A stretch of DNA of 40,945 nt from Bacteroidales bacterium (GTDB lineage: Bacteria; Bacteroidota; Bacteroidia; Bacteroidales; G3-4614), in assembly GCA_017935575.1 (NCBI GenBank), contig JAGBHI010000052.1:1-40945 (forward strand), in the 5' to 3' direction. Numbering within the stretch: position 1 is the stretch's first letter; each line of letters begins with the position of its first letter. This document shows positions 6,102 through 18,216 of this stretch, one piece after another. The notes under the pieces were generated by a model, which saw nothing but the letters and a program-made list of their open reading frames with translations, was not told the origin of the DNA and did no database searches. The translations under genes and the position numbers were made by a program.

Positions 6102-6971
6102 TTAAATATATTTATTTAATTCAACAATATAATCTTTAATTATTTTCAAATTAGGGTAGTTATATATACGAACATTCCATTCCTTAATTATCCTATTAAT
6201 GTAGAGTTTACTTATAAGTGTTCCACCAAAGTATGATAATATTTTAGAAACGGCTACTCTCTCAGTTTTAAAATCTGTTAATATAACTTCATCTGATTCT
6301 GGAGTAGCCATAACAGAGTTTGAATGATGTCTGTAATAATATAAACGAGCAGAAGTAAAAGCTATTTTATTTACTTCTGATAAATAATCAATTAACGCAA
6401 CAAAATCCTGACCTCTTTTTAAAGAGGTTGAAAGATGCCGTTTAACAATATCTGCCCTAATCAACTTATCCCACAACACAGGGCTACATTTGTTATTTAG
6501 GAAATCACAATTCTCAATATCTGATCTACTTAGTAATACATTCCCAAATTTATTCCATAGATCCAATGGTTTCCCTAATATACCATTTTTATCAACAGAA
6601 TATGACTTACACACGGAAATATCTGCATCCTCATCGGAAATCAATGAATACAAATGTTTATACATATTTCTATCAACATAGTCATCTGAATCAACAAAAC
6701 CGATGTATTTACCTCTTGCAACTAATACACCAGAATTGCGAGCTTGACCTTGACCTTGATTAAGTTGATGTATAACTTTGAAATTATGATATTTTTTTGC
6801 ATATTCATCTAATATTATAGAAGAACCATCAATGGAGCCATCATCAACCATAATAATTTCTATACTTTCCAATGTCTGATTTAATAAACTGTCCAAGCAA
6901 TATTTCAAATATGGTTTTGAGTTATATACTGGCACAATGACACTTACTAAATAGTCTTCACATTGAATCAT
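6102..6971 (-). CDS. Family 2 glycosyltransferase, last gene of the radical SAM/RiPP operon
   Basis: The 289-residue protein has a GT-A fold: VSVIVPVYNS at the N-terminus, the nucleotide-binding VDDGS at 42-46, NQGQGQARNSG at 71-81 and the metal-binding DSDD at 94-97. There is no membrane segment, so it should be cytoplasmic. The donor and acceptor cannot be told from sequence. Its ATG overlaps the stop of the M42 peptidase gene (ATGA, 6968-6971), so it is translationally coupled to the operon. By analogy with MftF, the family 2 glycosyltransferase of mycofactocin operons, it may sugar-coat the matured peptide; that is inference. A cell-surface polysaccharide role is the alternative, but no other polysaccharide gene is nearby. 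Confidence 0.85.
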   Translation of the reverse strand: MIQCEDYLVSVIVPVYNSKPYLKYCLDSLLNQTLESIEIIMVDDGSIDGSSIILDEYAKKYHNFKVIHQLNQGQGQARNSGVLVARGKYIGFVDSDDYVDRNMYKHLYSLISDEDADISVCKSYSVDKNGILGKPLDLWNKFGNVLLSRSDIENCDFLNNKCSPVLWDKLIRADIVKRHLSTSLKRGQDFVALIDYLSEVNKIAFTSARLYYYRHHSNSVMATPESDEVILTDFKTERVAVSKILSYFGGTLISKLYINRIIKEWNVRIYNYPNLKIIKDYIVELNKYI

Positions 6972-8005
6972 AAAATAAAAGATTTAACAAGCGCAATACA
7001 ATTTTTTACATCTGTTATTGATACCACCTCAGATGGAGAATGCATATATCTCACAGGATATGAAACTATTGCCGTTTGTATCCCTTTACATTGTATCTGT
7101 ATAGCCCTCGCTTCGGTACCGCTAGCATTAGGGTGCCCCTCTAATTGATAGGGGATATTTTCACTAATTGCAGTCTGGACAATTTCATTTATTAAATTTC
7201 TATCTGTATCTGGACTAATACATAAAGACGGTCCCCTGCTTAGACGAACATCGCCATATAATCTCTGATTTATGTTAGGATAGTCCGTTGCGTGAGTTGC
7301 ATCTATAACTATAGCTATGTCTGGCTTTATTTGTGTAACAGCAGGCATAGCTCCTCTTAATCCTATTTCTTCTTGAACCGTTGAAACAAAATAAATATCA
7401 TAATTGGTTTTACAATTATGTAATTCTCTCATTAATTCCAATAATATAAGACTTCCTATTTTGTTATCAGCAGAACGAGTAACTAAGTAATCATCACTTA
7501 TCTGTACACGATCTGTAGAAAAAGTAACAGGATCACCAACTGATATACATTGCAATGCATGTTCTTTTGATTTAAAACCTAAATCGACCCAAGTATCTTC
7601 TATTGAAAACGAGTTTCTTTCTTTTTCACTCAACAAATGTATTGGTTTACGTCCAACTATTCCCAAAAAAGAGTTACCGCGATGATGTACTGCAAGTCTT
7701 GTCCCTGGCAGCAACATCAAATCCACTCCTCCAATTGGGACTATATACAACATCCCGTTGTCATCAATATATTTAACCATGAAACCAACCTCATCAATAT
7801 GAGCCGTAATCATCAGTTTCTTCTTGCCTGGATTATTCTTGTGAGCAACAACATTCCCAAGCGTATCAAAATCAATTTCATCAACATATTTATTTGCAAA
7901 CTGTTCAAACAATTTTTGACCCTCTCTCTCAAAACCTGAAGGAGTTGGAACATCCAAAACCTTTGTCAGATAAAGATCACTTTCTTTATTAAAACAAATA
8001 TCCAT
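6968..8005 (-). CDS. M42-family metallo-aminopeptidase in the RiPP operon
   Basis: The 345-residue protein matches the di-metal M42 (glutamyl aminopeptidase/FrvX/TET) family. It has PTPSGFE at 21-26, the metal ligand motif AHIDEVGF (H69, catalytic D71), the bridging Asp in ADNKIG (D180), the catalytic and metal pair QEEIGLRGA (E212, E213), a further Asp in VIDATHATDYP (D235) and the final His in RYMHSPSEV (H322). All metal ligands seem present, so it is likely active. M42 enzymes form large tetrahedral complexes that trim short peptides in the cytoplasm. Being 3 bases after a radical SAM gene and overlapping the glycosyltransferase gene, it may remove leader residues from the modified precursor. 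A general peptide-salvage enzyme is possible but less likely in this position. Confidence 0.88.
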   Translation of the reverse strand: MDICFNKESDLYLTKVLDVPTPSGFEREGQKLFEQFANKYVDEIDFDTLGNVVAHKNNPGKKKLMITAHIDEVGFMVKYIDDNGMLYIVPIGGVDLMLLPGTRLAVHHRGNSFLGIVGRKPIHLLSEKERNSFSIEDTWVDLGFKSKEHALQCISVGDPVTFSTDRVQISDDYLVTRSADNKIGSLILLELMRELHNCKTNYDIYFVSTVQEEIGLRGAMPAVTQIKPDIAIVIDATHATDYPNINQRLYGDVRLSRGPSLCISPDTDRNLINEIVQTAISENIPYQLEGHPNASGTEARAIQIQCKGIQTAIVSYPVRYMHSPSEVVSITDVKNCIALVKSFIL

Positions 8006-8008
8006 AAA

Positions 8009-8944
8009 TTATTTAAAAGGAATAAAAGATTTTTCACCTAAAACTTCGGCTGTTTTTTTCCATGTTCCCGGACATTGTGCCTGAACAATGCACTCCTGAC
8101 ATGGTTTGAAGTTTGCACCACCATCCCCCTTGAGGTTAAAACGGATTTTATTATCTATGGGATTCTCATATGGCAAATATAGAGCTGTCATTTCCTCCTC
8201 ACTTTCATATTTCTGCAGGAACGACCAATAGTAAGGATCTATACAGCATAACGGGGTATTAAATATACGAACAATCCTGTTTCTTCCATTTCTTTGATAT
8301 TCTACGACTTTATCCAAAGTATTCTCAAGATAAGGTCTGGAAACAGAAAACGGTACTGATGAATCACCCTTATTTGTCAGTGCCGTTCCTGTCAGGTCAA
8401 TATTGCAAAGCACCCAAGGCACATTATCTGGGAATGTTTCGTAGAGCCAATCAACATACTCAGGAAGAAGTTGATATGTACTATTATTGATAATATGCTT
8501 TATGGTCACTTTGACACCAGCCTGAATCAGATTGTTTACTCCGAGCAGGGATTTTTGGAAACTACCCAACACGGAGGTCACACGATCATGTTCATTTTCC
8601 CTGAAACTATGAAACGCCGTCGTGAGTTCAAATTCGTTTCCTGCCACAGCAATGAACCTCTTCAAAAATTCTGGATCGGAAAACTTCAAGGAATTTGAGA
8701 GAATCCCAAGTTTTAGACCTTTCCTATTTATATATGACACAAGGTCTAAAATACCCTTATAAATGGTTGGTTCTCCACCTGAAATCAAGACCATTTCAAT
8801 GCTCTCTTTTTCAATCGCCTTGTCAACAGCATCATATAGTTCATCCAAGGTTAATTGTGTATAACGTCTCGCATTCAACGCACATGGACAGAAGACGCAC
8901 TTCTCGTTACAAATATATGATGGAGATATAAATAATGTTTTCAT
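8009..8944 (-). CDS. Radical SAM enzyme with short C-terminal cysteine cluster (paralog A)
   Basis: The 311-residue protein starts MKTLFISPSYICNEKCVFC. The cluster cysteines C12, C16 and C19 form the radical SAM CxxxCxxC motif, followed by the SAM-binding SGGEPTI. The C-terminal part has TPLCCIDPYYW and then CQECIVQAQCPGTW, a SPASM/twitch-like set that may hold an auxiliary Fe-S cluster. It is a clear paralog of the 308-residue protein at 10688-11614: same start, CNE(K/R)C.FCPC, SGGEPTI, IDPYYW and CPGTW. I do not recognise a named family. The gene lies 3 bases before the peptidase gene and 27 bases after the SPASM maturase gene. Peptide or small-molecule modification is inferred from the neighbours. 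Confidence 0.85.
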   Translation of the reverse strand: MKTLFISPSYICNEKCVFCPCALNARRYTQLTLDELYDAVDKAIEKESIEMVLISGGEPTIYKGILDLVSYINRKGLKLGILSNSLKFSDPEFLKRFIAVAGNEFELTTAFHSFRENEHDRVTSVLGSFQKSLLGVNNLIQAGVKVTIKHIINNSTYQLLPEYVDWLYETFPDNVPWVLCNIDLTGTALTNKGDSSVPFSVSRPYLENTLDKVVEYQRNGRNRIVRIFNTPLCCIDPYYWSFLQKYESEEEMTALYLPYENPIDNKIRFNLKGDGGANFKPCQECIVQAQCPGTWKKTAEVLGEKSFIPFK

Positions 8945-8971
8945 TTATTAGGGTTCTTATATATTAAGTTC

Positions 8972-10300
8972 TCATTTAAGTAAAATATTTTCAAGTATAG
9001 ATAGTGTTTGTTTACAGAATCGTGTGTCTGGCTTATGAATTGTGGCAAATTTTCTTTCTGTATTTATGACACAACCACCGCCACATATTCCTAATGCTGG
9101 ACAGTCATAACATTCTGGCATATATAATGGGGAACGCTTCTGCCACTCTTTGTACATAGATGATTGAGCTGGGTCAAACGTATCATCAAATATATCGGTG
9201 ATGAAATGTTTTTTATCCATAATATGCTCATGACAAATACCAACTGACCCATCTGGTGCTATAGCAATCTGTCGTCCTCCTGCTGCATTACAATCAAACA
9301 GGCACGGATGTTTCTTTTCAAACACCTGCAAACGACGCCCTGTTCTGTTTTCTGTTATATTGTGTTCAGTTAATTCAAAATACGCTGATGACACAAAATC
9401 TGCAGCAGCATTATCATAGTCACCATCAAGTTGTATAATATCATTATCGAGAATGACATTAAAACCGATATTTGTAGCTTCAACAGTATTGATAAAATAA
9501 TCAAGAACTTCTGATCTTCTTTCTATAGTTTGTGGTGTAAGTGTACATGCAACATTCAAATCAATACCTATTTCTTTGCACTTCTTAAAGTTTTTTGTAG
9601 CAATTTCCCAAGCTAGTGTTCTTAAATCAGGGAATACTCTATTAATTGATGCCTCCTTATCACCATCAAGAGAAAAAGTTAATGTAACATCATGTTTTTT
9701 TATAAAACTAATATCATTATCATCAAGCAATGTACCATTAGTAACCACTAATATTTTTGTTTTTTGGGGAAGGATCCCAAACAAGATATAATCCTTTATT
9801 TTTTCTATTGCATGATACAAAACTACCTTATTGTGAAATGGCTCTCCTCCGTAAAAAATTATTGTTTTTCTTTCATCAAAGCGTTCCTTGTCCAAATTAA
9901 TAAGTCTAACAAAAAAGTCAAGACCCTTATCAAATGTACCAATAGACATTATTCCTTCCTTTGTATTTGCAACCTCAGATTGTTTTTCAAAACAATATTT
10001 ACATGCAAGGTTACAATTCTTTGTTAAAAAGAAATAGGCTGTTGATATATATGGTTCTTGTATTTCATTTCTGTAAATTTCTAACAGTTTTTCGTCAGAA
10101 TTATCAGATAAACAAATAAAACCTTCTTTTGATAATATATTATATAATTCTGAATCACGAGAAATATTTATAGCTCTTCTGTTTATATCAATTTCAGATT
10201 CTCCGATAGAGACTAATTTCATTTTCAAAGAGTGGTATAGAACTCTTTCTCCACGGTGATTCAATAGATGTGAATATCTTGATAATTTATACTGAGTCAT
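8972..10300 (-). CDS. Radical SAM/SPASM peptide maturase
   Basis: The 442-residue protein has an N-terminal domain of about 85 residues (RYSHLLNHRGERVLYHSL) typical of SPASM peptide maturases. The radical SAM motif CNLACKYC follows (C96, C100, C103), then YGGEPF, and a SPASM domain with CNAAGGRQIAIAPDGSVGIC, CYDCPALGICGGGC and a final FC. Enzymes of this class install carbon-carbon, carbon-sulfur or carbon-oxygen links in ribosomal peptides. The gene is the first after the precursor peptide gene, separated from it only by a GC-rich hairpin, which makes it the best candidate for the enzyme acting on that peptide. The exact chemistry cannot be read from the sequence. Confidence 0.9.
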   Translation of the reverse strand: MTQYKLSRYSHLLNHRGERVLYHSLKMKLVSIGESEIDINRRAINISRDSELYNILSKEGFICLSDNSDEKLLEIYRNEIQEPYISTAYFFLTKNCNLACKYCFEKQSEVANTKEGIMSIGTFDKGLDFFVRLINLDKERFDERKTIIFYGGEPFHNKVVLYHAIEKIKDYILFGILPQKTKILVVTNGTLLDDNDISFIKKHDVTLTFSLDGDKEASINRVFPDLRTLAWEIATKNFKKCKEIGIDLNVACTLTPQTIERRSEVLDYFINTVEATNIGFNVILDNDIIQLDGDYDNAAADFVSSAYFELTEHNITENRTGRRLQVFEKKHPCLFDCNAAGGRQIAIAPDGSVGICHEHIMDKKHFITDIFDDTFDPAQSSMYKEWQKRSPLYMPECYDCPALGICGGGCVINTERKFATIHKPDTRFCKQTLSILENILLK

Positions 10301-10325
10301 AGCTGTTAAATTTATTAATTACAAG

Positions 10326-10364
10326 GGGGCTGTGTCAAAATACAAATAAAAAAGACACAGCCCC
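10326..10364 (-). other. GC-rich hairpin between precursor gene and maturase gene
   Basis: GGGGCTGTGTC (10326-10336) pairs perfectly with GACACAGCCCC (10354-10364) around a 17-base loop. On the transcribed minus strand the loop is U-rich, but no U-tract follows the stem, so it is not a standard terminator. In many RiPP operons a leaky hairpin after the precursor gene raises precursor over enzyme mRNA; that role is inferred. The plus-strand sequence resembles the left end of the IS1182-like element at 40784 (14 identical bases, GGCTGTGTCAAAAT, and the same hairpin layout). Confidence 0.7.
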
Positions 10365-10383
10365 ACATTGATAATCTTCTGCA

Positions 10384-10611
10384 TTAATTGCAGATTGCAC
10401 CCCAGTTATTCCAACCGTTATTCATCCATGATTCCCATGCACGGTTCTCAAACTTTGATGCTAAAGAGCAATTGTTTGATTCATTATTTGAATCATACAT
10501 TGCTGTAATGCTAGCAGCATTACCTTCAAGCTCGATACTAACTTCTGTACCTAACTTCTCTGAAAAAACTTTTACAGTCTTCATTGGTTTAAAATTTAAA
10601 AAATTAAACAT
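10384..10611 (-). CDS. RiPP precursor peptide with Trp/Asn-rich C-terminal core
   Basis: This is a short gene between two radical SAM genes. From the first ATG (10611) it encodes 75 residues; an internal ATG at 10584 (MKTVKVFSEKLG) would give 66. The first ATG has a weak GGAG about 11 bases upstream, so the start is undecided. Residues 10-47 look like a leader (charged, then Asn/Ser-rich). The C-terminus is unlike it: FENRAWESWMNN followed by GWNNWGAICN, with W59, W62, W67, W70 and C74. Two W-x-x-W motifs and three aromatic-x-Asn triplets (F-E-N, W-M-N, W-N-N) fit substrates of radical SAM cross-linking enzymes such as those making darobactin or three-residue cyclophanes. I know no close relative. 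Confidence 0.75.
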   Translation of the reverse strand: MFNFLNFKPMKTVKVFSEKLGTEVSIELEGNAASITAMYDSNNESNNCSLASKFENRAWESWMNNGWNNWGAICN

Positions 10612-10687
10612 AAGTGCATTTCTCCATATGAGATAATGCTTTTTCTTTTCATATATCTTTTAAGTATTATAACAAACAGTATAAAAT

Positions 10688-11614
10688 TTACTCACAAACA
10701 ATACTCTTCAATATTGATTCATCAAAATTGTTCTTGAAACTACGCCATGTGCCTGGACAATATTTATTCAATTCACAATTTGTACATGCTTCAAACAATG
10801 GACCACTATCACTACCAATATCCCATAACAATTCACTATTAGGCACTTTATATGCTGCAACATTTTCTTGTGTTGAAGTTTCTATAAATCCCCAATAATA
10901 TGGGTCTATTAAACATAATGGGGTAGTTAATACCTTTACATTTCGTTTGTGTCCAAGTTTCCTTTGTTCAATTACGATATCTAAAGCCTGCTCTAAATAG
11001 GGAATAGAATCACGAAAATCCACAGCAACATTCTCTTTATTTGATGCTGCTGTACCATTAATATCTATATTGCAGAACAACAATGTAACATTATCTTCAA
11101 ATTGAGATGTTGCCCATTTTATATATTCTGGAAGATCCTTATATGTATAGTTAACGATATTATTTTTTATAGATAACTTTACATTATGTTTAAGCATATT
11201 TGAGATTCCTTTCATGCTCCTATTGAAACTGCCCTTGTGTTGTGTCAAAAAATCATGTTTCTCTGGAATATGACTATGGAAAGCTACCGTCACATCAAGT
11301 TTTGAGCCATCAATAATTGAAAACATTTTTTCAGCAAATGTATCATCTGCAAGACGTAAAGCATTTGTAAGTAAACTTATATTAACATCAAATCTTTTAA
11401 TATAATCCAATATTTTAAAGAAGTCGGGGTGAATTGTTGGTTCTCCTCCAGACAATAATATATTTTCAACTCCTTTTTCTTCTATTGATTGACGTACTGT
11501 CATACATACTTGATCGTATGTTAGCGAAGGCACAGTTACAGAGTCTTTTGAACATGGACAAAATTGACAACGCTCATTACATACATACCCTATTGCACAA
11601 TATAATGTTTTCAT
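10688..11614 (-). CDS. Radical SAM enzyme with short C-terminal cysteine cluster (paralog B)
   Basis: The 308-residue protein starts MKTLYCAIGYVCNERCQFC, with cluster cysteines C12, C16 and C19, followed by LLSGGEPTI. It ends with TPLCLIDPYYW and CTNCELNKYCPGTW, a reduced SPASM/twitch-like set. It is the paralog of 8009-8944, so the operon carries two copies of the same uncommon type on either side of the precursor and SPASM maturase. The stop is 76 bases before the precursor ATG, and the start is 2 bases after the 467-residue maturase gene. Two paralogs could act on different residues of one peptide or form a heterodimer; both ideas are inference. Confidence 0.85.
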   Translation of the reverse strand: MKTLYCAIGYVCNERCQFCPCSKDSVTVPSLTYDQVCMTVRQSIEEKGVENILLSGGEPTIHPDFFKILDYIKRFDVNISLLTNALRLADDTFAEKMFSIIDGSKLDVTVAFHSHIPEKHDFLTQHKGSFNRSMKGISNMLKHNVKLSIKNNIVNYTYKDLPEYIKWATSQFEDNVTLLFCNIDINGTAASNKENVAVDFRDSIPYLEQALDIVIEQRKLGHKRNVKVLTTPLCLIDPYYWGFIETSTQENVAAYKVPNSELLWDIGSDSGPLFEACTNCELNKYCPGTWRSFKNNFDESILKSIVCE

Positions 11615-11616
11615 CT

Positions 11617-13020
11617 TTATATTTTGTTTAATTTTACTCTTCCCCTTGTCAATGGGAATATAGCATTTGGCTCAGAAAGAATTAATTCTATTAGTTTTGG
11701 ATACAATGTTTTATTTGCAATACATTCCTGATTATCAACACCCTCAACACATCCTTTTTTATACTTTATTGCTGTAGTACACCCCCCTTTGCAATAGAAC
11801 CAAAAAGGACAGTTGTCACATTCATTTATATGCTTTTTATTGAAAAAATCACAATTAGATTTCTTCGCATTATTGACAAGAGTAATTAGGTCTTGCTTAT
11901 CATGAACAGAGCCTATAGCCTCTTTCTTGTAATCAGTGACATCACACGGATAAATCAGTCCATCCTGATCAAAAGCTATCATCTTTGTGCCACCCATACA
12001 CCCTCGTGAAGTACATATATTAGATTTACTTCGGACAAGGAGATTCATTAATTTCTCTTGAACATTCAATTCTGTAATTGGATATCCTCTTTTATTCAAT
12101 TCAACTAATTTTGAAAGTAATGTTATCTCTGCTAATTCCACTTGCTCCTTAGTTAAGCATAATCCAGCATCTTTCATTACGGGATTATCTTTAACAAGAT
12201 TAAGTTTAAAACATGAAACTTTAACTTCTGTTGCCAAAAACTCAATGATTTCTTTAAGATACGGAAAACTTTTGCTAGTCAATACTGTTACTACGCCAAA
12301 ATTCTTTAAATTTTCATTATTTGCCAAAATCTTTACACCTCGCATCATTTTTTCAAATGATGGTTTTCCATTCATTAAAGGTCTATGCATATTCTGGACT
12401 AACTCAAATCCATCAATGCTAACTCCTAAACGAATATTTCTTATAGCACACTCCTCGGCTAATTCTTCCGTTATAAGACTTGCATTTGTTTCAATAGAAA
12501 TTAATGGATATAATCCCTTTTCTTTAAACATATTGTCCATCCTTCTGATTTTATCAAATGCTATTAATGGTTCTCCGCCCCAAGGTTGTACACAAAAATT
12601 TTTAATCTTGTATTTAATACAATAGTCAATAATATAATTGGTGATAGCATCAAGATTTTTATCAGATATTGTACGAACTTTATCTTCTAAATGCCTAAAA
12701 CAATATATACAACGGAAATTACATGCCTGTGTTAAATCAAATATAAAGAATGTCGGTTGTACTCTTTCTTTTACCTGACATTCAAGACAATTTCCTCTTT
12801 CAATCAATCCTCGTTGAATCATCTTGAATGCAAGAGGCTCTTCAATATTTTGATAATATAATTGATCACATAGTTCTGACGATAATATAATAGAACAGCC
12901 ATTCTCAGGATTTAAAAGGAAACCATTCCTTTCAATTTCATCTTTGAAAAGATAGCCACCTTTAAATCTACCAATATTACCTCCTATATCAAAAGATCTT
13001 ATATACTCTAAACTTCCCAT
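11617..13020 (-). CDS. Radical SAM/SPASM peptide maturase (second type)
   Basis: The 467-residue protein begins with a domain of about 90 residues that could hold a peptide-recognition fold, ending in CLEC. The radical SAM motif CNFRCIYC follows (C100, C104, C107), then PWGGEPL, TNASLI and GVSIDG. The C-terminal SPASM region has CTSRGCMGGTKMIAFDQDGLIYPC and CDNCPFWFYCKGGC plus a later Cys pair. This layout is that of sulfatase-maturase/peptide-maturase proteins such as thioether and carbon-linked RiPP enzymes. It differs clearly from the SPASM protein at 8972, so the two probably do different chemistry. Its ATG overlaps the stop of the 94-residue gene by one base, which indicates coupled translation. 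Confidence 0.88.
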   Translation of the reverse strand: MGSLEYIRSFDIGGNIGRFKGGYLFKDEIERNGFLLNPENGCSIILSSELCDQLYYQNIEEPLAFKMIQRGLIERGNCLECQVKERVQPTFFIFDLTQACNFRCIYCFRHLEDKVRTISDKNLDAITNYIIDYCIKYKIKNFCVQPWGGEPLIAFDKIRRMDNMFKEKGLYPLISIETNASLITEELAEECAIRNIRLGVSIDGFELVQNMHRPLMNGKPSFEKMMRGVKILANNENLKNFGVVTVLTSKSFPYLKEIIEFLATEVKVSCFKLNLVKDNPVMKDAGLCLTKEQVELAEITLLSKLVELNKRGYPITELNVQEKLMNLLVRSKSNICTSRGCMGGTKMIAFDQDGLIYPCDVTDYKKEAIGSVHDKQDLITLVNNAKKSNCDFFNKKHINECDNCPFWFYCKGGCTTAIKYKKGCVEGVDNQECIANKTLYPKLIELILSEPNAIFPLTRGRVKLNKI

Positions 13021-13304
13021 TATTCTATTATCTTTTTAAGTACCAATAATGTATATATTGACTCTGCATCTTTATCAAAACAATCATTAATAAGCATTAA
13101 TACATCATGTATCCCTTTTTCTAATTCCTTTATAAACCGTAACGCAGACTCGTTGCTTTTAAAGTTTGCTAATAACAATGAGTCAAAAAGAGTATTATAA
13201 AACATAACATCTTTCCCATTTATAGAATATTCAACATGCTGAGATAAATAATAAAGATTTATATTCTCTTTGCTGAAATAATTAGAATACAATATATTTC
13301 GCAT
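13020..13304 (-). CDS. Small protein coupled to a radical SAM maturase (possible peptide-recognition protein)
   Basis: The 94-residue protein is not one I recognise. It has an N-terminal part with ISNG-like beta strands (YSINGKDVMFYNTLFDSLLLA) followed by helical segments, and no signal peptide, membrane helix or cysteine pair. Its stop overlaps the start of the 467-residue SPASM maturase by one base. Size and position match PqqD/MftB-type RiPP recognition elements, which bind the leader peptide and present it to the radical SAM enzyme; this is inference from context. A second precursor is less likely because the C-terminus (LLVLKKIIE) has no core-like composition. Confidence 0.6.
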   Translation of the reverse strand: MRNILYSNYFSKENINLYYLSQHVEYSINGKDVMFYNTLFDSLLLANFKSNESALRFIKELEKGIHDVLMLINDCFDKDAESIYTLLVLKKIIE

Positions 13305-13331
13305 AATTAATTTTTATTATGAATAATAACT

Positions 13332-14186
13332 TTAAATATTTTTTTTACAAAACCCTTTTTTTAGATGTGGACAAATATCTATATCTTGTAAAACAGTAAA
13401 CCCTGTCGTTTTAATATTTCCCAATAGTTTACCATTACAATATACAATATCCCCTTTTTCAGTAATTCTAATATATCTAAAACCATCAAAACAGCGAGTT
13501 CCATAGATTGGGTTATTTGCAAATTCCCACCAATTATCAATACTAACATTATTTTCACATGCTATTTTGAATTTTTTCTTATCTATTAATGACATTTTTT
13601 CTATTGAATTAATAACCATATTCTTCATCATAGAAAACTGCCTATCATTGTACGATTCTGGATATTTAACTCCTCGTTCAACACCTCTCATCAACTTTGG
13701 TAATAAAATAACTCCTTGACTTTGATAATCCTTTATAAAATCAGATATCTGTTCAAATTCGTCAGGCATCATTACAATTGTCGCGTAAACAAAAAAACCA
13801 GCTTCTCTAAGAGCCATATAGTGCCGAATAAAAGGCTTCATGTGTTGTTTCCTATAAGGATAATGTACACTTGCATTTATAAATATAAATTTTTCAGATT
13901 TGACCTTTTCTATAAAAGTATTTACAGGTATAGTTAAATTGGTATTCATGCTTATATAATGACCTTTTTGCTCAAGTTTGATGCATAAATCAATAATATT
14001 TGGGACAAGAAAAGGCTCACCTCCTGTTAAATGAAATAATATAGGTTCACTTATATTATCAATAAAAGAATAGTCAACTGATTTGCATTCTGCATTTCTT
14101 GTATCAGCATTTTGTAAACAATAATAACAGTTAAGATTACACTTTTCTGTCAATATCCAATCAACTATTCTATTAACTTGGATCAT
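13332..14186 (-). CDS. Radical SAM protein, first in the maturase series
   Basis: The 284-residue protein has the motif CNLNCYYC (C16, C20, C23), HLTGGEPF at about residues 50-59 and NTNLTIP. The C-terminal region has RCFDGFRYIRITEKGDIVYCNGKLLGNI and then CPHLKKGFC, a SPASM-like remnant with four Cys. The shortness of this end suggests one auxiliary cluster at most. Its first 14 bases overlap the end of the TrkA-like gene, so it belongs to the same operon. The substrate is unknown; the neighbours point to peptide modification. Confidence 0.83.
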   Translation of the reverse strand: MIQVNRIVDWILTEKCNLNCYYCLQNADTRNAECKSVDYSFIDNISEPILFHLTGGEPFLVPNIIDLCIKLEQKGHYISMNTNLTIPVNTFIEKVKSEKFIFINASVHYPYRKQHMKPFIRHYMALREAGFFVYATIVMMPDEFEQISDFIKDYQSQGVILLPKLMRGVERGVKYPESYNDRQFSMMKNMVINSIEKMSLIDKKKFKIACENNVSIDNWWEFANNPIYGTRCFDGFRYIRITEKGDIVYCNGKLLGNIKTTGFTVLQDIDICPHLKKGFCKKNI

Positions 14187-15321
14187 TTATATATTCTTTT
14201 AATGTGTCATCAACAATATTGTATACTACAATATTATTATCTTCTTTTTTTGTTTCTATCTTATCAATTAATTCTTTCTCAATATTCATGCCCATGAGTG
14301 TTATTTTCATATTTATATCACTCCAATCTATCCATTTACATGCTGTTGAAAATAGCAACCAATCAGCGCCTAAACAAATAAATACCTCAAAAAACTCTGT
14401 CTTAAGATCAAATCCACACTCAGATAAATATTTAGTTAAATCACGATGAACCAATCCTTTTATATCAGAACAATTATAATGAAGTCTTGGACCTTCAGGA
14501 TAGATATCTTTTATTCTTTTAAGTGTTATATTACTTTGCTCTATGGCTATAATTCTATTACTTTCTCTATATTTTTCAATAAGGCGTTTCCCGATGCTTC
14601 CTAATCCTAGAATAATTATATTACCATTATTTATGAACGGCAAAGAATGCATAACTAATTCTGAAAAATTGAATACTTTAAACCCATTTTCTTCATTCGA
14701 AAGAAACTTTATAATATTTTTATTATCTAACTGCTCAATTCTTACTGATTTCTTAATATTGTTTCCCAACTTTAATTTTATTAACTGCATACAAACAAGG
14801 ATATTAATATAATCGCTTCCTGTTGATATAATTATCTCAGAAGCATTCTGTATCCTCGCCTCCAATAAAGTTGATAGTAAAGACGCATCCTTTTTTATAT
14901 GAATTTCATTCAATGAAATAATAGGATTATTAATAGCTGGATCAATTACAATTACCTTCTTTTTTTGAGCGATTATCCTTTTTACAATATGCTTGCCTGT
15001 AAATCCATATCCACATACAACTACATGATTATTGAAAAATCTCATGCATAACCATTTCCAGCCTTCATGTGATAAAGAATAAATTAATTGAATTCCTCCA
15101 CATATTACAACTATAGGTGCTAAAAAACGAGCGATATTAATACTCAAGCAAGTCTCTGGAGATGAGCTGCCTAATGTAAATAACTGCATTGTTTTATATA
15201 GTGCATCAAAAAATGAATATCCTTCATCATCATGGACGCATAAGTATCCATACATCGCACATATTACTGTTATTACTGCAAATATGATTATCCAAACAAT
15301 AAGTTTTTTTCTAAAAAACAT
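14173..15321 (-). CDS. Ion-channel-like membrane protein with two TrkA-N (RCK) domains
   Basis: The 382-residue protein has a first membrane helix (residues 8-28), a re-entrant pore-like region (38-58) and a second helix (64-82). Two Rossmann NAD-binding motifs follow, GYGFTG at 104-109 and GLGSIG at 239-244. The pore has LFTLGSSSP where potassium channels have TVGYG, as in the divergent TrkA-N/RyR-type putative channels, so potassium selectivity should not be assumed. It is the first gene of the RiPP operon and overlaps the next by 14 bases. Export, self-protection or sensing of membrane state by the peptide system are all possible; none is shown. No strong promoter is visible in the 65 bases upstream. 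Confidence 0.75.
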   Translation of the reverse strand: MFFRKKLIVWIIIFAVITVICAMYGYLCVHDDEGYSFFDALYKTMQLFTLGSSSPETCLSINIARFLAPIVVICGGIQLIYSLSHEGWKWLCMRFFNNHVVVCGYGFTGKHIVKRIIAQKKKVIVIDPAINNPIISLNEIHIKKDASLLSTLLEARIQNASEIIISTGSDYINILVCMQLIKLKLGNNIKKSVRIEQLDNKNIIKFLSNEENGFKVFNFSELVMHSLPFINNGNIIILGLGSIGKRLIEKYRESNRIIAIEQSNITLKRIKDIYPEGPRLHYNCSDIKGLVHRDLTKYLSECGFDLKTEFFEVFICLGADWLLFSTACKWIDWSDINMKITLMGMNIEKELIDKIETKKEDNNIVVYNIVDDTLKEYINDPS

Positions 15322-15386: not shown

Positions 15387-15779
15387 TTAATCATCTAATC
15401 CGTTTAACGTCCAAGTTGTTACTTTTCCACACCTTTTACAACGTGTAGTAACGACTGAATAATTATCATCAATTATTTCTAAATCATCATAACCACATTT
15501 AGTACACTCTAATGTACACTCCTTTCCCCCTCTTCGGATTATAGTTTCTTTTGAACCACTTAAAAAAAGCCAATATACTGCATAAAATCCTATGATAAAT
15601 ACCAATAATGCTTTCCACCAACTAAAAAATATCCACACTATAATAGAAGCCACTATTATAAGTATATATCCTATCCAATCTAATACTTGATATTTACCTC
15701 TTAATCTTATGCATATTTTGCGAATTATAATAAAAGCTATTATAAATATTATTAAGCTAACCCATACACTCATAATCAA
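15387..15779 (-). CDS. Small membrane protein with C-terminal zinc ribbon
   Basis: The 130-residue protein has three hydrophobic segments (about residues 4-20, 35-52 and 55-74). A cytoplasmic tail carries CTKCGYDDL (two Cys spaced by two residues) and, about 25 residues later, CKRCGKVTTW, a classic zinc-ribbon pair. I do not recognise the family. The gene sits 65 bases upstream of the channel gene and 55 bases downstream of the next membrane protein gene, on the same strand, so it may belong to one long transcript with the RiPP operon. Confidence 0.6.
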   Translation of the reverse strand: MIMSVWVSLIIFIIAFIIIRKICIRLRGKYQVLDWIGYILIIVASIIVWIFFSWWKALLVFIIGFYAVYWLFLSGSKETIIRRGGKECTLECTKCGYDDLEIIDDNYSVVTTRCKRCGKVTTWTLNGLDD

Positions 15780-17007: not shown

Positions 17008-18216
17008 TTATATCAACTTCAATATCATATTATTAGCCTTGTCTATTGCTACTGTATCTAACGACGCAAGATAGATGCGTGTTGTTGCTTCTGAATTGTG
17101 TCCCATTCCCTCACTTATTACTGACAATGGTACATTTTTATTTTTAGCTATACTTGCCCACGCATGCCGAGCAACGTACATTGTAAGAGGTACTGATATC
17201 TCTAACTTTTTACCTATAATTTTAAGACTATGATTAATATTGTGTGCGGCATAAATATATTGCTTTCGCTCCTCAATATTACTAATAGGCTTGATTATTG
17301 GCAGTAGATATAAGGAGGTTGTATTATCATATTTTTCTACTATGTCCTGCATACATTTTTCCCATCTGATATAAAGCTGTTGTCCTGTCTTGCGCCTACG
17401 ATACGATAGCACACCATTTGATAAATCTTTTTTACGCAGATATGCCATATCTACAAACGACATTCCTCGTGTATAAAACGAAAATAGAAACATATCGCGA
17501 GCAAATTCAAAAGTTGGCTTTGCTGAAAAATCAAGTTCCTTAATTTTTTTGATAATTTTAAGTGATACTGCTCTTTTTATGGTTTTATCAATTCCTGTAT
17601 AAACATTCTTAAATGGTTTTTTATCAAAAATCAAACCCTTTTCTACTGCACGATTATATATTGCTCTAAGATTCCGCATATAAAATGATGAAGTATTTGG
17701 AGTAACTCCTCTATTTCGTAAATAGATTTCATATCTTTTTATCATATCTGAGTCTATATCTTTCATATCTATATCTTCTCCCTCTCTAAATCGTTTTAGA
17801 CTACGGAGTGCTGATGCATATGTTTCGGACAAACGTATCTTACCCAACATTTTTTGGTTGGCAATTAAACGTTCCATAAATAAGAATAATTTGTTTTCTG
17901 TGGAATAAATTAAAAATTGTTCTGTAATATCATTGGTTGTATATTCTTTTCCATTATATTCCATTCTGAAAATAATTGTTTGAAGATATTTTATATCTGT
18001 ACGGATATTATTTCTTATCTTCTTTAATTGCGATATCCTTTCTTCATTGTTTTTTGACAATACCACATCTGACATATCTGAATCCCATTCATTAACATAA
18101 AGGTGGTAATTTGTATTTATCTGACGTACTACACAATTATGTACTACTTGATAAATAATTATGCCTTCGCTACTTTCAATTTTTGATTTTCTGAATTTTA
18201 CTTTTATTGTTGCCAT
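17008..18216 (-). CDS. Tyrosine recombinase (Bacteroidales invertase/integrase type)
   Basis: The 402-residue protein has an N-terminal arm-binding domain (residues 1-95), a SAM-like core-binding domain (about 105-205) and a catalytic domain. Catalytic residues visible are R250 (YTRGMSF), K276 (RRKTGQ), R350 (YVARHAW, where the usual box II His is Tyr347 as is common in this Bacteroidota group), H373 (GMGHNS) and Y382 (TRIY). It should be active. Length and motifs fit both integrases of mobile elements and the local DNA invertases of Bacteroidales. With inverted repeats 27 bp away and no other mobile-element genes, inversion of the adjacent promoter is the favoured job. Confidence 0.9.
   Translation of the reverse strand: MATIKVKFRKSKIESSEGIIIYQVVHNCVVRQINTNYHLYVNEWDSDMSDVVLSKNNEERISQLKKIRNNIRTDIKYLQTIIFRMEYNGKEYTTNDITEQFLIYSTENKLFLFMERLIANQKMLGKIRLSETYASALRSLKRFREGEDIDMKDIDSDMIKRYEIYLRNRGVTPNTSSFYMRNLRAIYNRAVEKGLIFDKKPFKNVYTGIDKTIKRAVSLKIIKKIKELDFSAKPTFEFARDMFLFSFYTRGMSFVDMAYLRKKDLSNGVLSYRRRKTGQQLYIRWEKCMQDIVEKYDNTTSLYLLPIIKPISNIEERKQYIYAAHNINHSLKIIGKKLEISVPLTMYVARHAWASIAKNKNVPLSVISEGMGHNSEATTRIYLASLDTVAIDKANNMILKLI

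Follow-up and report, generated by a model that had tools for sequence, protein, structure and literature searches.

The minus strand of the DNA analyzed in this study (40,945 nucleotides, a single contig from a 2.0 Mb Bacteroidales genome, in the following called the window) carries, from position 15321 down to position 6102, a contiguous set of genes which probably constitutes a complete cassette for the biosynthesis of a RiPP of undescribed type, yielding one fixed product with a Trp/Asn-rich core along the route proposed below. The cassette is a RiPP pathway, yet its architecture and its precursor are undescribed, as neither the searched family models nor the literature (open-licence PMC) contain a description of this gene set. 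This agrees with the first-pass annotation of the window, which had proposed a RiPP-type pathway without a match to any characterized class.

Gene content, precursor and predicted recognition protein

In the direction of transcription the genes are Kch, rS5, D, B, C1, A, FR, C2, M42 and GT2. Kch (14173..15321), which had been left out of the otherwise correct initial gene list, encodes an ion-channel-like protein with two TM segments and a TrkA_N (RCK) domain (PF02254, 65.9 bits) and is a variable accessory gene. The short radical SAM protein rS5 (13332..14186; PF04055, 43.2 bits) has no N-terminal extension and exhibits four conserved C-terminal Cys residues, probably holding one auxiliary cluster. 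It is followed by D (13020..13304), a protein of 94 aa, by the radical SAM/SPASM maturase B (11617..13020) and by the HxsC-like radical SAM protein C1 (10688..11614; TIGR03977, 112.6 bits). The precursor peptide A (10384..10584) precedes a second radical SAM/SPASM maturase, FR (8972..10300; TIGR04136, 279.8 bits), and C2 (8009..8944), a paralog of C1 (39% identity) which is present in the gut versions of the cassette only. The last two genes encode a metallo-aminopeptidase of the M42 type (6968..8005; PF05343, 281 bits) and a GT2 glycosyltransferase with a DSDD motif (6102..6971; PF00535, 128.8 bits). PF04055 scored above the Pfam cut-off in all five proteins that had been called radical SAM enzymes, and the motifs read from the sequence (CxxxCxxC, CPGTW at the end of C1 and C2, CPHLKKGFC at the end of rS5 and the SPASM domains in B and FR) are real and conserved. 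In the M42 protein, residues H69, D71, D180, E212/E213, D235 and H322 are invariant in five loci, so that the metal ligands and the catalytic Glu are intact. The single-strand arrangement was found as annotated, whereas the description of the genes as mostly overlapping was overstated: three junctions overlap (Kch/rS5, D/B and M42/GT2) and gaps are present at the remaining ones. A tyrosine integrase gene (17008-18216) adjoins the cassette, and a small membrane/zinc-ribbon protein is encoded upstream of it in two loci (window 15387-15779; L024 3400-3762).

A short precursor had been annotated with a length of 75 aa; the gene is present, but a start at position 10584 and thus a length of 66 aa is most likely, as this Met is common to all six homologues. 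The peptide consists of a leader (approximately residues 1-40) and a C-terminal core, AWESWMNNGWNNWGAICN. Among the gut loci the A peptides share 89-98% identity, with a Trp/Asn-rich core of 18 residues (AWESWxNNGWNNWGAICN), in which the W-x-N motif occurs twice, and a C-terminus, LASKFENRAWESW(M/I)NNGWNNWGAICN, that is fixed apart from the M/I position. Even the more distant peptide from genome G109 retains W-E-x-W-M-N-x-G-W-N-N-W-G-A-I-C-N, with the last nine residues being invariant. The leader is likewise strongly conserved. A contains at most two Cys residues, and the peptide of the window contains no His. The pN values of A among gut loci were 0.006-0.064, with pS values of 0.53-0.74 (0.92 to G109) being near saturation, while the enzymes exhibited pN values of 0.10-0.38, the highest of which belonged to GT2, the fastest-evolving gene of the set. 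A is therefore by far the most constrained gene and is under much stronger purifying selection than its maturases, a pattern unlike that of a diversifying bacteriocin. A precursor sequence that hardly changes between hosts points to an undescribed peptide product.

Directly 3′ of the stop codon of A lies a strong hairpin (10325..10364, minus strand; z -3.9), which was found at this position in all six loci (z between -3.6 and -7.1 in the other five), with stem sequences that are unrelated to each other. No hairpin was found in the spacer between C1 and A in the five loci tested. It appears likely that this hairpin sets the ratio of precursor to maturases by attenuation or via mRNA stability, which would be one way to yield more precursor than enzyme.

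The protein D has no family match in NCBIfam or Pfam. Its AlphaFold2 model (pLDDT 87.5) consists of three strands followed by three helices, and the top matches obtained with Foldseek and VIA-align were mostly RREs, namely TbiB1 (with leader), ThcOx, McbB, TigE and PbtF (Z 5.8-7.0), with PqqD ranking lower. As Z values of this size (7 or less) can also result from a common arrangement, it is the predominance of RREs among the best matches that supports the assignment. D is thus predicted to be a stand-alone leader-recognition domain, in line with the role of recognition protein suggested initially for the 94-aa protein, and its position next to precursor and maturases is conserved. An identity of D with HxsD was rejected (hhalign probability of 0.1 against four annotated HxsD proteins and two proteins in HxsD position), and a profile comparison with the N-terminal extensions of B and FR gave no match. 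C1, C2 and rS5 begin directly with the radical SAM domain, a layout for which a separate RRE makes sense; these three enzymes would depend on D. The AlphaFold2 model of B was of low confidence (pLDDT 64.7) and was left unused.

Distribution and conserved gene order

A contig scan with the C1/C2 alignment across 84,980 species genomes, which detects only loci with two peptide patterns and thereby misses the G109 type, yielded four further loci. All of them stem from MAGs of the animal gut, three of which were recovered from goat colon, water deer cecum and water buffalo colon, the fourth being Candidatus Gallipaludibacter. The order rS5-D-B-C1-A-FR-C2-M42-GT2 is kept in three of them (L021, L023 and L024), each including a conserved rS5, and the fourth (L022), whose contig begins within B, keeps it from B onward. 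The flanks differ among the gut loci; all that they have in common is the zinc-ribbon protein in the window and L024, and several small genes in L023 and L024. A sixth locus (L029), from a genome of another family (G109), was obtained when 393 Bacteroidales genomes were searched with profiles; this minimal version consists of D, B, one C, A and FR and lacks rS5, C2, M42 and GT2. The conserved gene order in five gut loci together with the minimal version in the sixth argues that the operon is not a product of chance, and the outcome that would have refuted the first-pass reading, a lack of joint conservation of these genes, is not observed.

Some features are restricted to individual loci. A Kch homologue (34% identity) lies within the operon in L022 only, between M42 and GT2, so that Kch is attached to the cassette in two of the five gut loci; both genes (window 14173-15321; L022 5955-7034) lack the GYG filter motif, and their attachment points differ. 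The Kch protein might respond to the product. In L024, an additional gene encoding 151 aa without a Pfam match (9028-9483) is located between FR and C2. In L022, a stop codon interrupts the N-terminal part of B near the contig start (1-245), reflecting either an error or decay, and the contig is labelled Clostridia yet resembles the Bacteroidales loci.

The cassette is rare and mainly found in animal-gut Bacteroidales, and its parts travel together. Among the 393 Bacteroidales genomes, A, B and C each occurred only in the genome of the window and in G109, apart from one marginal precursor match (E 0.002) with a stop codon inside. FR was found at E 1e-60 in one of 395 genomes across the phylum, and none of seven genomes of the same genus contained the cassette. 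A conserved transporter, secretion motif or immunity gene was not found among the six loci. Carriage on plasmids or phages was rejected: nothing closely related to C1 or FR was present in the plasmid collection (best FR match: 33% identity), and viral contigs gave no relative of C1/C2 and two distant ones of FR (23%). A clean empty site was not found either. In four same-genus genomes tamB is directly followed by a gene matching the window at 31 kb, with the GH84-type gene being located elsewhere; as tamB and the GH84-type gene thus lie apart, the region 6070-31018 of the window has undergone rearrangement, and the borders of an insertion could not be drawn cleanly. The reading as a defence system was rejected, as a PADLOC search yielded only generic viperin-type radical SAM scores.

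Relation to described systems

Judged by sequence comparison, the nearest testable relatives of the maturases appear to be HxsB for B, HxsC for C1 and C2 and the FibroRumin maturase for FR. In hhalign comparisons B matched the HxsB set with an E-value of 4e-23 over 410 columns and C1 the HxsC set with 2e-28, the homology being distant but extending over most of their length. B, however, scored about equally against sulfatase-maturase and PapB models, which makes its tie to HxsB not an exclusive one. Canonical Hxs loci (TIGR03977 for HxsC, TIGR03978 for HxsB) are ordered hxsD-hxsB-hxsC, often followed by hxsA, which is the same order as D-B-C-A in the cassette. Nevertheless, plain membership in this system was rejected. 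B reached 103.9 bits (cut-off 370) and C1 and C2 reached 112.6 and 115.2 bits (cut-off 267.9), and D shares with HxsD its position only and no sequence relation. HxsA contains SHRSHSSH repeats and an N-terminal hydrophobic, signal-like stretch, whereas the 66-aa A has neither His-Xaa-Ser repeats nor such a stretch, and the extra maturases, the peptidase and the GT2 are additional to the Hxs gene set. In a tree of the C proteins with HxsC as outgroup, the single C of G109 groups with C2 and not with C1 (support 0.94), which suggests that the split between C1 and C2 may predate the gut versions.

FR comes closest to TIGR04136, the FibroRumin maturase family, of which it is a divergent relative, with scores of 279.8 bits in the window and 287.8 bits in G109 that stay below the cut-off of 400. 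The FibroRumin-type loci examined carry Cys-rich precursors and a single maturase, unlike the Trp/Asn-rich A and its several enzymes; with FR under the cut-off and no Cys-rich precursor beside it, plain FibroRumin membership was rejected as well. With B and C being Hxs-like and FR being of the FibroRumin type, the cassette joins an Hxs-like core and a FibroRumin-like enzyme on a new type of precursor. On a Campylobacter plasmid (L041, 9391-11484), the gene of a UvrA-like double ATPase overlaps a FibroRumin maturase gene, and this ATPase is a possible partner or self-protection gene.

With mycofactocin the cassette shares a common logic of precursor, separate recognition protein, radical SAM enzyme, peptidase and glycosyltransferase (PMC7491314). 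However, the radical SAM enzymes, the peptidase (here M42) and the precursor belong to different families, MftD is missing and five radical SAM enzymes are present. Common descent with mycofactocin or PQQ, to which the first-pass annotation had likened the cassette, is not supported, and membership in these systems was rejected on family scores: no protein reached the cut-offs for MftC or MftF (TIGR03962: at most 58.4 of 265 bits; TIGR03965: 53.9 of 280 bits). Trp-Asn motifs and SPASM maturases are common to the cassette and to the triceptides and darobactin-type RiPPs. Yet, no maturase of the cassette reaches the family cut-offs of these RiPPs (B: 99 bits against DynA, 92 against YhhB and 65 against DarE), and the cassette differs by its several maturases, its separate RRE and the lack of a transporter.

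Proposed pathway and alternative explanations

In the pathway considered most probable, D would bind the leader of A, and B, C1 and FR would form the core set that introduces radical-chemistry modifications into the C-terminal core. These modifications would most likely be Trp-centred C-C cross-links. Cross-links from i to i+2 between Trp and Asn are known from SPASM enzymes (PMC11002830), and the triplets W-M-N and W-N-N of the core fit this cyclophane motif. C2 and rS5 may add further modifications in the gut versions. The M42 aminopeptidase would then degrade the leader from its N-terminus up to the cross-linked core, a role that is plausible given that an aminopeptidase has been described as theoretically sufficient for core release in mycofactocin (PMC7491314), and GT2 would perhaps glycosylate the product. 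The minimal locus lacks M42, GT2, C2 and rS5, so that a product made there would not need them. This counts against the scheme, as does the unusual number of five maturases for a core of 18 residues. The product may serve as a cofactor or signal within the producing cell or in its vicinity, an internal role that is slightly favoured by the lack of a conserved transporter or immunity gene. The more specific idea of a new intracellular peptide-derived cofactor or redox group, for which several radical SAM enzymes would convert the invariant Trp/Asn core following a PQQ- or mycofactocin-like logic of independent origin, appears rather unlikely.

The invariance of A and the missing transporter would also be compatible with an antibiotic that has a conserved target and leaves the cell through a system encoded elsewhere. 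A cross-linked peptide of the darobactin or triceptide kind that is exported for antibacterial action or signalling carries a minor, yet appreciable probability. It would explain the resemblance of the core to known cross-linked peptides and the scores of B against the DynA, YhhB and DarE models, and a rare, host-associated cassette with varying flanks is reminiscent of many accessory weapons. However, B stays below the cut-offs of these models, the core of A does not diversify, and a conserved export or immunity function is missing from all six loci. Alternatively, A might stay a whole modified protein of 66 aa with a structural or regulatory function, as HxsA may do, instead of being cut to a small molecule. 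The conservation of the leader and the hxs-like gene order would fit this idea, which nevertheless appears very unlikely in view of an aminopeptidase with an intact active site in all five gut loci and of the missing signal-like stretch of HxsA. Quite improbable, too, is a pathway restricted to D, B, C, A and FR with rS5, C2, M42 and GT2 being neighbours that serve another task. The absence of these four genes from the minimal locus would be expected in that case, but they occur in the same order and on the same strand in all sufficiently complete gut loci despite differing flanks, and C2 is a paralog of C1.

The proposed scheme of a complete RiPP cassette would thus describe a self-contained pathway in which several types of radical SAM maturases act on one nearly invariant peptide. 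The natural occurrence of a minimal version with five genes and an extended version with nine makes the order of the modifications testable by stepwise addition of the enzymes. The combination of a constrained precursor and the lack of a transporter raises the possibility that gut Bacteroidales use the cassette to produce a peptide-derived cofactor or signal, and not a diversifying bacteriocin.
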